Position numbers and translations under genes: made by a program | Part shown: piece after piece, positions 16,322 through 17,292 of the stretch | Layout: every line of letters begins with the position of its first letter | How positions within the stretch are numbered: the stretch's first letter is position 1 | Notes under the pieces: generated by a model | Told to the model about the DNA's origin: nothing | Database searches by the model: none | Seen by the model: the letters and a program-made list of their open reading frames with translations, nothing else | NCBI RefSeq assembly: GCF_907164905.1 | Contig: NZ_CAJRAF010000002.1 | Coordinates: 1,612,001 to 1,676,000 of the forward strand | Reading direction: 5' to 3' | DNA length: 64,000 nt | Origin: Dyadobacter sp. CECT 9275 | GTDB lineage: Bacteria; Bacteroidota; Bacteroidia; Cytophagales; Spirosomataceae

Positions 16322-16792
16322 CTATACTTCCGCCAGCGGGATAGACCTGTTGATTCTTTCCTCCAGTGAGATAAAGGTTTCTGTACGCTGGATACCACTC
16401 ACTTTCTGAATTTTATCGTGCAGGATTTCCCGTAGATGCCCGGTATCCCGACAAACGATTTTGGTAAAAATACTGTAAATACCTGTTGTATAATGAATAT
16501 TGACGACTTCCGGGATTTTTTCGAGTTCTACCGCGACCTGCTCATATAATGAACTTTTGTCCAGGTAAATTCCCAGAAAAGCACTGATATCCCAACCAAG
16601 CTTAGCCGGATCGATAACAAGCTGAGAACCCTTTACAATTCCCATCTGTTCCAGTTTTTTCATTCGGACGTGGACCGTCCCGCCGGAAACAAAAACTCTC
16701 TTTCCTATCTCTGTATAAGGCAATGCCGCATTTTCAATTAACAGAGACAGAATCCTTAGATCAGTACTATCAATATCTGAATATTTTTGCAT
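16322..16792 (-). CDS. Lrp/AsnC-family transcriptional regulator
   Basis: The 156-residue protein has a full AsnC-type layout. The N-terminal helix-turn-helix is DSTDLRILSLLIENAALPYTEIGKRVFVSGGTVHVRMKKLEQMGIV. A RAM-type sensor domain follows, with WDISAFLGIYLD and TGIYSIFTKIVCRD, ending in a strand pair ETFISLEERINRSIPL. Such proteins form octamers and respond to amino acids. It is the first gene left of the tRNA-like locus, and the 170-base AT-rich gap to its right probably holds its promoter. Targets cannot be told from sequence. Confidence 0.9.
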   Translation of the reverse strand: MQKYSDIDSTDLRILSLLIENAALPYTEIGKRVFVSGGTVHVRMKKLEQMGIVKGSQLVIDPAKLGWDISAFLGIYLDKSSLYEQVAVELEKIPEVVNIHYTTGIYSIFTKIVCRDTGHLREILHDKIQKVSGIQRTETFISLEERINRSIPLAEV

Positions 16793-16923
16793 AAAACGTC
16801 AAATGTTTGAATTTTTCATAACAATATAGCTCAAATAATAGATGTATTGTAAATTTTTCGAATTTTTTATGAAAAAATTTTATATTTAAATTCTTTACTT
16901 TTAGCTTTGCACTATCAAAATAC

Positions 16924-16943
16924 GTACAATAATGCTATTGTAC
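16924..16943. promoter_or_regulatory. Inverted repeat upstream of the tRNA-like locus
   Basis: GTACAATA-ATGC-TATTGTAC is an 8-bp perfect dyad with a 4-base spacer, 17 bases before the predicted RNA 5' end. It may bind a regulator, possibly the adjacent Lrp-type protein (inference). Confidence 0.45.
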
Positions 16944-16960: not shown

Positions 16961-17120
16961 TGTAGGGTGATGAAATTGGCAGCCATGCCCTCCTGTCTCG
17001 GGGGTGGTGAATCAGGGATAAACGCGGCATAATGCCGGCTTAGGCCGACTGGGGTGGACCACCAACAGTATTTGTACCGTAGCTAACCGCACCGTGGGTG
17101 GTTCGAATCCCCCTCCTACA
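16961..17120 (+). ncRNA. tRNA-like structured RNA with a ~90-nt insertion in the variable region
   Basis: The ends pair as a full 7-bp acceptor stem: TGTAGGG (16961-16967) with TCCTACA (17114-17120). The 5' part reads TGATGAAATTGGCAGCCATG, a D-arm close to that of type II (Leu/Ser) tRNAs with the GG pair. Then comes an anticodon-like arm, CCCTC-CTGTCTC-GGGGG (16988-17004). The 3' part has a T-arm GGTGG-TTCGAAT-CCCCC (17097-17113; four of five pairs). Between the two lie about 92 bases holding several hairpins: GGTGGT/ACCACC (17003-17063, alternative to the anticodon arm) enclosing CGGCA/TGCCG, then ACAGTA/TACCGT. The apparent anticodon GTC does not match the Leu/Ser-like body. It may be an unusual RNA, a disrupted tRNA or an intron-bearing tRNA. 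No CCA is encoded. Confidence 0.6.
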
Positions 17121-17196
17121 GCAAAAAAAACTTGACAAGCGATTATTTTCGTAGTAGTTTTATTTGGTTTTTAGTTTGTTGATGAAGTGTAATTTG

Positions 17197-17231
17197 ACAC
17201 GCGGGTTCATTTTGAAACCTGCGTGTTTTTC
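17197..17231 (+). terminator. Intrinsic terminator downstream of the tRNA-like RNA
   Basis: ACACGCGGGTT/AACCTGCGTGT forms an 11-bp stem with one G-T pair, followed by TTTTTCTTT. No coding gene precedes it on the plus strand, so it fits best as the 3' end of the transcript that carries the tRNA-like RNA. Confidence 0.75.
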
Positions 17232-17292
17232 TTTATATGGCTCAAAGTCCTGTAAATCAAGAATCTAGACTTAACACAGGAGTTTTTTTTAA

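Follow-up and report, generated by a model that had tools for sequence, protein, structure and literature searches.

To our knowledge, every tRNA on which amino acids are known to be synthesised also takes part in decoding. The closest described system is the synthesis of asparagine on tRNA-Asn in Deinococcus, Thermus and Bdellovibrio, in which, as far as the accessible part of the source goes, asparagine is carried by the ordinary, decoding tRNA-Asn and a non-discriminating AspRS is required (PMC4206432). The same part of that paper reports this chemistry for Bdellovibrio and lists some Bacteroidetes among the clades that have AsnRS, GlnRS and GatCAB but lack an asparagine synthetase. In the window, i.e. 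the whole stretch of 64,000 nucleotides of Dyadobacter sp. CECT 9275 that was analysed, lies a tRNA-like RNA gene for which we propose the same chemistry and the same partners, and which likewise has U1-A72; it differs in being a separate carrier, whose loop is of the aspartate type and hardly ever has A37 and whose variable arm is giant. Compared with the chemistry in the accessible part of PMC4206432, the separate carrier RNA would be the new point. This conserved, oversized tRNA probably reads no codons and carries aspartate during its conversion to asparagine.

With bacterial tRNA-Asp, the RNA has G34 U35 C36, C38, G73 and G2-C71 in common, but it is unlike it in its Leu-like class-II body, in U1-A72, in almost never having A37 and in its length of 77-211 nt. 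The class-II body is common to bacterial tRNA-Leu, from which the RNA differs in the anticodon loop, in G73 and in a variable region of up to more than 100 nt. Like tmRNA, it is tRNA-like with a large insert, and tmRNA genes occur on some of the same phage contigs (L231, L273, L286, L287 and L288 carry their own); unlike tmRNA, it has an anticodon arm. A tmRNA-like tag RNA was rejected in view of the covarying anticodon arm, members down to 77 nt and no ARAGORN tmRNA call. In E. coli, asnC is divergent from an asparagine-making gene, as proposed here, the product being AsnA there and an RNA here. Among the titles and abstracts retrieved from an open-licence library, no description of the RNA family was recognised, and the accessible part of the GapMind paper gave nothing relevant on asparagine gaps.

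The RNA gene and its family

The gene lies on the forward strand at 16961..17122, from the acceptor stem to G73 C74, and is matched over the whole of the covariance model R1 with 138.8 bits; homologues support it as well. The first-pass annotation had placed a tRNA-like RNA with a structured insertion at 16961..17120; the start holds, whereas the end is better set at 17121-17122, the positions of the discriminator G73 and of C74, both also present in the genus's ordinary tRNA-Asp genes. The acceptor stem, described at first as perfect, does have 7 bp, of which six are Watson-Crick pairs and one is a G.U: its 5' strand TGTAGGG (16961..16967, +) faces TCCTACA (17114-17120), so that U1 pairs with A72 at 17120. 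T8 G9 follow, and then a class-II D-arm (16970..16986, +) that reads, as annotated, as type II-like with GG; it has a 3-bp stem and an 11-nt loop with G18 G19, a layout and loop length that we take to be Leu-like. The anticodon arm CCCTC-CTGTCTC-GGGGG (16988..17004, +), earlier called anticodon-like, consists of a covarying 5-bp stem and a 7-nt loop, CTGTCTC, with GTC at positions 34-36 (G34 U35 C36), U37 and C38.

Between this arm and the T-stem lie about 91 nt, close to the 92 extra bases counted originally, and most of them form the giant variable arm (17006..17093, +; ~88 nt), whose base GGTG/CACC is paired and covaries. Within this arm, an internal loop GATAAA..GCTAAC recurs, and the apical part is variable in length and bears the motif GGGGTGGACCAC. 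The T-arm GGG(T)GG-TTCGAAT-CCCCC (17096..17113, +) has the TTCGAAT that the annotation gave it, with the correction that its stem carries one bulged T. ARAGORN made no call, tRNA or tmRNA, at the place of the RNA in the window, and Rfam, RF00005 included, made none at the RNA, its two matches with E<=1 lying nearby upstream and far below the gathering scores. Single-sequence folding gave a z of +0.89, 162 of 200 shuffles folding at least as well, and the minimum-energy fold is other than the cloverleaf. Since the folding energy is unremarkable and neither ARAGORN nor Rfam makes a call, one sequence alone cannot carry the claim, and its support beyond chance is comparative.

Homologues with compensatory changes, part of the evidence on which the first-pass reading was to stand or fall, were found. 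A DNA search returned one match per genome in 37 of 37 genomes of the genus, its own included (91-100% identity, 160 nt), and matches in 12 of 22 genomes of the order, G039 and G058 having tandem copies. Further multiple copies were noticed in G482 (L369, L379), with three similar copies in tandem and a fourth elsewhere, and in G218 (L081, L082, L083, L092), with four scattered ones. When 14 representatives were aligned with MAFFT, pairing held in 95.2% of the cells, and both sides had changed in 14 of 27 pairs; neither value was reached in any of 500 shuffles, and slid controls were 51.5-62.7% paired. Model-fitted alignments gave 96.2% paired cells and 16 of 27 doubly changed pairs for 31 distinct bacterial sequences, and 96.4% paired cells for 61 distinct rows of the viral set, five of which lie outside the family; the raw viral covariation counts include L240 and four ordinary tRNAs. 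Compensatory changes back each tRNA helix as well as the base of the variable arm, which elsewhere reads GGGG/CCCC, GGAG/CTCC, GAGG/CCTC, GAAG/CTTC and others. On this comparison, the window RNA is confirmed as a conserved tRNA-like gene with a structured variable arm. An anti-Shine-Dalgarno role for the CCTCC in the anticodon stem was rejected, as the stem varies with compensation (CCCGC/GCGGG, CCTCC/GGAGG).

The covariance model sets the family apart: matches uncut by a contig end score 82-150 bits, bar G047 and G441 (73-74), and the next matches, mostly of about 85 nt, reach at most 63 bits. Distinct full-length members of the first sets measure 77 to 211 nt, and the bulged (longer) 5' strand of the T-stem is found in 17 of 147 distinct bacterial sequences; from this set, ten matches were removed, four of them to ordinary tRNAs and six truncated, and the 134-nt phage tRNA L240 was left in the viral counts. 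The gene L240 (9979-10112), from a phage contig, is tRNA-Leu-like; its anticodon arm is disrupted, perhaps through an intron or insertion. Four weak R1 matches on phage contigs are tRNA-Leu genes according to ARAGORN. The 77-nt relative (G047), which is without the variable arm, is a tRNA-Asp(atc) for ARAGORN and its sole call on ten loci. In some members (L376:1201-1365, L378:1125-1257, L380:1165-1327, L382:1162-1307 and L218:897-1056), the D-loop is enlarged to at least 20 nt; the insertion habit thus goes beyond the variable arm.

Identity elements and the AsnC neighbour

Loop counts refer to those 84 distinct full-length members that came from the DNA similarity search or the model scan (sets A2, A5); the named-genome and viral sets (A3, A4) were left out because their fetch pattern fixes part of the anticodon loop. 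U1-A72, G2-C71 and C74 occur in 84/84 and G73 in 83/84, U35-C36-N-C38 in 82/84 and G34 in 78/84, a few members having A or C at position 34. Position 37 is U in 70, C in 6, G in 6 and A in 1 of the 83 readable loops; L385 is without most of the loop, and the loop of L386 has diverged. In the viral set (55 distinct), the ends are U-A in 51, A-U in 3 and A-A in 1, one of the A-U cases being the unrelated tRNA L240.

A purine is expected at position 37, beside the anticodon, in tRNA-Asp; the RNA has G or A there in 7 of the 83 readable loops. Ordinary tRNA-Asp genes have G1-C72, A37 and the loop CTGTCAC in 13 of 13 cases (11 Dyadobacter loci, 2 phage contigs), and such genes lie alongside the RNA in the phage loci L264 and L273. 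Among seven ordinary tRNA-Asn genes, two have U1-A72 and five have G1, four of the latter on viral contigs and the fifth in a Saprospiraceae MAG with a match to the RNA pattern. The accessible part of PMC9976931 gives G73, G34, U35, C36 and C38 as the aspartate identity set, with G1-C72 as important in bacterial tRNA-Asp, and that of PMC4206432 states that bacterial GatCAB recognises U1-A72. The full aspartate set G34 U35 C36 C38 G73 is found in the window RNA, together with U1-A72 in place of the G1-C72 of bacterial tRNA-Asp (84/84); the RNA thus joins an Asp anticodon loop and a GatCAB-type end in a Leu-like body. That the GTC anticodon misfits a Leu/Ser-like body had been recognised from the outset, and this misfit is the key to the RNA.

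On the opposite strand (16322..16792, -), divergent from the RNA, a Lrp/AsnC regulator of the AsnC type with 156 aa is encoded (PF01037). Its best NCBIfam family is NF008384 AsnC with 156.7 bits, below the cut-off of 227, and AsnC is likewise the best family in 10 of 10 neighbours tested (140-179 bits); over 145 aa, the protein is 43% identical to E. coli AsnC. By these scores, the window regulator is AsnC-like, short of formal membership in NF008384. Predicted ORFs were grouped into single-linkage clusters; on this count, 73 of 118 bacterial loci, or 73 of 115 distinct places (three places occur twice among the 118 loci), have an AsnC/Lrp protein upstream, which is divergent in every case and 122-253 bp away. 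At model-found loci of newly drawn genomes, an AsnC-like protein is upstream and divergent in 19 of 28, one of the 19 being only 38% identical to the window protein and one cut by the contig end. Adjacent AsnC is absent at 42 of the 115 places and at 9 of the 28 model-found loci, and no viral locus has a neighbour of the AsnC cluster within 5 kb (0 of the 73 loci with such a neighbour). AsnC is the sole widespread bacterial neighbour cluster (73 loci), the next bacterial clusters spanning 13. Near an AsnC-RNA locus, proteins assigned by eye as SufC-like (L031:56-808) and SufB-like (L158:3365-4807) were seen; each belongs to a cluster found at 13 loci, and other ABC ATPases may be mixed into one of the two clusters.

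In the window, 168 bp separate the asnC-like gene and the RNA, and the divergent pair asnC and asnA of E. coli K-12 has a gap of 151 bp. In G110, which is without the RNA, asnC is divergent from asnB, 122 bp apart, this asnB scoring 491 bits, just under the model cut-off; asnB lies beside AsnC at 1 of 30 AsnC-family loci (including paralogues and two genomes with the RNA, G050 and G053). The -7 consensus of Bacteroidota promoters is TAnnTTTG. It is matched by TAGCTTTG at 16902..16909 (+), and 107 of 180 distinct bacterial upstream regions contain it at a distance of 15-80 nt, against a mean of 9.3 and a maximum of 18 in 200 mononucleotide-shuffle sets; in viral upstream regions, it is present in 6 of 63. 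The dyad noted upstream in the first pass is a 20-nt palindrome in the leader, GTACAATAATGCTATTGTAC (16924..16943, +). Its sequence varies within the genus, several other leaders of which bear different inverted repeats, and it was rejected as a conserved AsnC operator because it is unconserved. The terminator noted downstream appears, by eye, as a terminator-like hairpin with a T-run at 17197..17235 (+), about 75 bases downstream. Between the RNA and this hairpin, the conserved stretch TTATTTGGTTTTTAGTTTGTTGATGAAGTG was observed at 17159-17192; its 18-nt core recurs in 18 of 183 distinct bacterial downstream regions. Upstream of AsnC in the RNA-less G056, a different short element followed by a terminator-like hairpin remains, as judged by eye. 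The intergenic stretches of seven genomes, otherwise viewed by eye, held no ARAGORN gene.

Partner genes, proposed function and rival explanations

Co-occurrence was followed in 66 genomes taken from the DNA search and the phylum draw, 36 with the RNA and 30 without, GatCAB being represented by GatB; nine calls of absence were made by DNA similarity only (G037, G038, G042, G043, G046, G048, G051, G056, G057), and G047 with its 77-nt form counts as RNA-less here and as RNA-bearing in the class draw. AsnRS is present in 66 of 66 genomes, and a missing AsnRS was rejected as an explanation on that count. GatB is found in 36/36 genomes with the RNA as against 8/30 without, all eight of which have no GlnRS; among the 49 genomes with both GlnRS and AsnRS, it is found in 28/28 with the RNA and 0/21 without (Fisher 3e-14, ignoring kinship). 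The class draw gives GatB in 45/45 RNA-bearing genomes (27/27 newly drawn) against 185/247 overall (hypergeometric 5e-7, ignoring kinship). E. coli-type AsnB behaves inversely: over its cut-off, it occurs in 0/36 genomes with the RNA and 16/30 without, a 17th (G110) falling just under, and in the class draw in 0/45 against 28/202, or 29/247 overall counting G110 (hypergeometric 0.002, ignoring kinship). Within families, RNA and GatB are jointly missing in some members and jointly present in others (f22, f23), and f75 has members with both, with neither and with GatB only; such co-transitions are few. Two members of f23, G075 and G171, are without RNA, GatB, AsnA and E. coli-type AsnB and are possibly asparagine auxotrophs; G171 has one AsnB-family match over the cut-off, G075 none.

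AsnA occurs in 3/36 genomes with the RNA and 5/30 without, and an AsnB-family match (TIGR01536) over the cut-off, with function unassigned, in 30/36 with it, so that another asparagine route may exist there. Six RNA-bearing genomes (G000, G001, G013, G246, G041, G206) have neither AsnA nor an AsnB-family match over the cut-off, and hence no recognised route to asparagine, although four of them have weaker paralogue matches. In the genome of the window, AsnRS, GlnRS and GatB are present, AsnA is absent, and there is no AsnB-family match over the cut-off and three weaker ones. Eleven RNA-less genomes, G110 included, are also without AsnA or E. coli-type AsnB over the cut-off; six of these have GatB.

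Three observations, namely the co-occurrence with GatB, the inverse occurrence of AsnB and an AsnC gene in divergent position, speak for a part in asparagine synthesis. We propose, with a probability of roughly 0.7, that the RNA is a tRNA dedicated to tRNA-dependent asparagine synthesis, in the following manner: The RNA would be transcribed from its own promoter, divergently from the asnC-like gene, the product of which probably regulates it by asparagine supply. AspRS would recognise G34 U35 C36 C38 and G73 and attach aspartate, and GatCAB, recognising the U1-A72 end, may then amidate the aspartate to asparagine. Release, by hydrolysis or by a putative hydrolase, would make the asparagine available to AsnRS and to metabolism. 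As an Asn-charged GUC tRNA would put asparagine at aspartate codons, the RNA must be kept off decoding, presumably by base 37, which is almost never A, by the giant variable arm and by the T-stem bulge of some lineages. The more far-reaching form of the proposal, in which the RNA has left the genetic code, serves solely as a carrier for AspRS and GatCAB and replaces an asparagine synthetase at the asnC locus, its arm excluding it from decoding or docking the enzymes, we hold to be rather probable, if less so. Against the proposal count that the RNA has U1-A72 although bacterial tRNA-Asp is said, in the accessible part of PMC9976931, to need G1-C72, and that only 2 of 7 ordinary tRNA-Asn genes show U1-A72. 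The RNA would be redundant if the host AspRS also charges tRNA-Asn.

Alternatively, the RNA could be a sensor, its charging or amidation state informing AsnC or mRNAs of the Asp/Asn or nitrogen status, and no bulk source of asparagine. The divergent AsnC, the recurrent internal loop and apical motif of the variable arm and the AsnA or AsnB-family genes in many RNA-bearing genomes would fit such a role; the viral loci, however, have no AsnC-cluster neighbour, the six genomes above have no recognised asparagine route, and the variable arm can be short or absent, which makes this reading unlikely. Of the first-pass suggestion of a new class of tRNA-like regulatory RNA, the new class is supported; regulation is possible, and the evidence points to asparagine synthesis. 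Slightly less credible still is a real, if odd, tRNA-Asp that decodes: an additional isoacceptor, with a large variable arm, which bacteria and phages alike would maintain for codon supply. An ordinary tRNA-Asp with A37 and G1-C72 already exists in the genus and in two phage loci, A37 occurs in 1 of 83 readable loops, position 34 is A or C in a few, and the dependence on GatB, the exclusion of AsnB and the AsnC synteny would be left unexplained, even if the GTC loop, G73, the ARAGORN call on the 77-nt relative and the phage copies among many tRNA genes agree with decoding.

Charged-tRNA donors for non-ribosomal reactions exist, and the apparently non-decoding body would suit a donor that transfers Asp or Asn to a lipid, peptide or protein; since no member of a transferase family was recognised among the recurrent neighbours, most smaller clusters having remained unnamed, and the anticorrelation with AsnB points to asparagine itself, we regard this as improbable. 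That the RNA is a chance resemblance or, as the first pass also considered, a decayed tRNA has next to no probability, its poor single-sequence folding energy and the silence of ARAGORN and Rfam standing against conservation across the class and in phages, compensatory changes and a promoter motif in more than half of the bacterial upstream regions.

Distribution and biological meaning

By the covariance model, the RNA is present in 45 of 247 genomes of an even draw of the class, including the low scorers G047 and G441, and in a phylum draw of 247 genomes all listed matches above 63 bits fall in the class of the window. At least 120 named genome records match the loop pattern, and 80 of the 80 scanned match the model, two being cut by the DNA end; among the matches listed are Dyadobacter, Spirosoma, Hymenobacter, Cyclobacterium, Algoriphagus, Chitinophaga, Pedobacter, Mucilaginibacter and Saprospiraceae. 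The pattern is also matched by 91 viral stretches, of which 80 were scanned with the model: 79 reached at least 82 bits, and one, cut by the contig end, 52 bits. A 636-kb uncultured phage matches as well (67.5% identity, E 6e-6); the plasmids searched gave no match to the RNA. One protein cluster is represented within 5 kb in 39 viral loci, and the member examined is a terminase large subunit (PHROGs), which indicates that real phage genomes are behind many of these loci at least. Some phage copies sit among many other tRNA genes; on L273, 19 ARAGORN tRNA calls were seen besides the tmRNA. A phage integration-site remnant was rejected, as the RNA is whole and covarying.

The RNA family escapes ARAGORN and Rfam at the window locus. 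If the proposed dedication to asparagine synthesis is true, the RNA would be a purely metabolic carrier tRNA, in which amino acid synthesis is separated from translation. It would explain why GatCAB is retained in Bacteroidota that have both GlnRS and AsnRS, and it would show by what route asparagine can be made in genomes that have no recognised asparagine synthetase. The phages would gain a metabolic gene of 150 nt, copies of which plausibly keep asparagine flowing during infection, and a tRNA serving metabolism only would be common to many environmental bacteria and their viruses.
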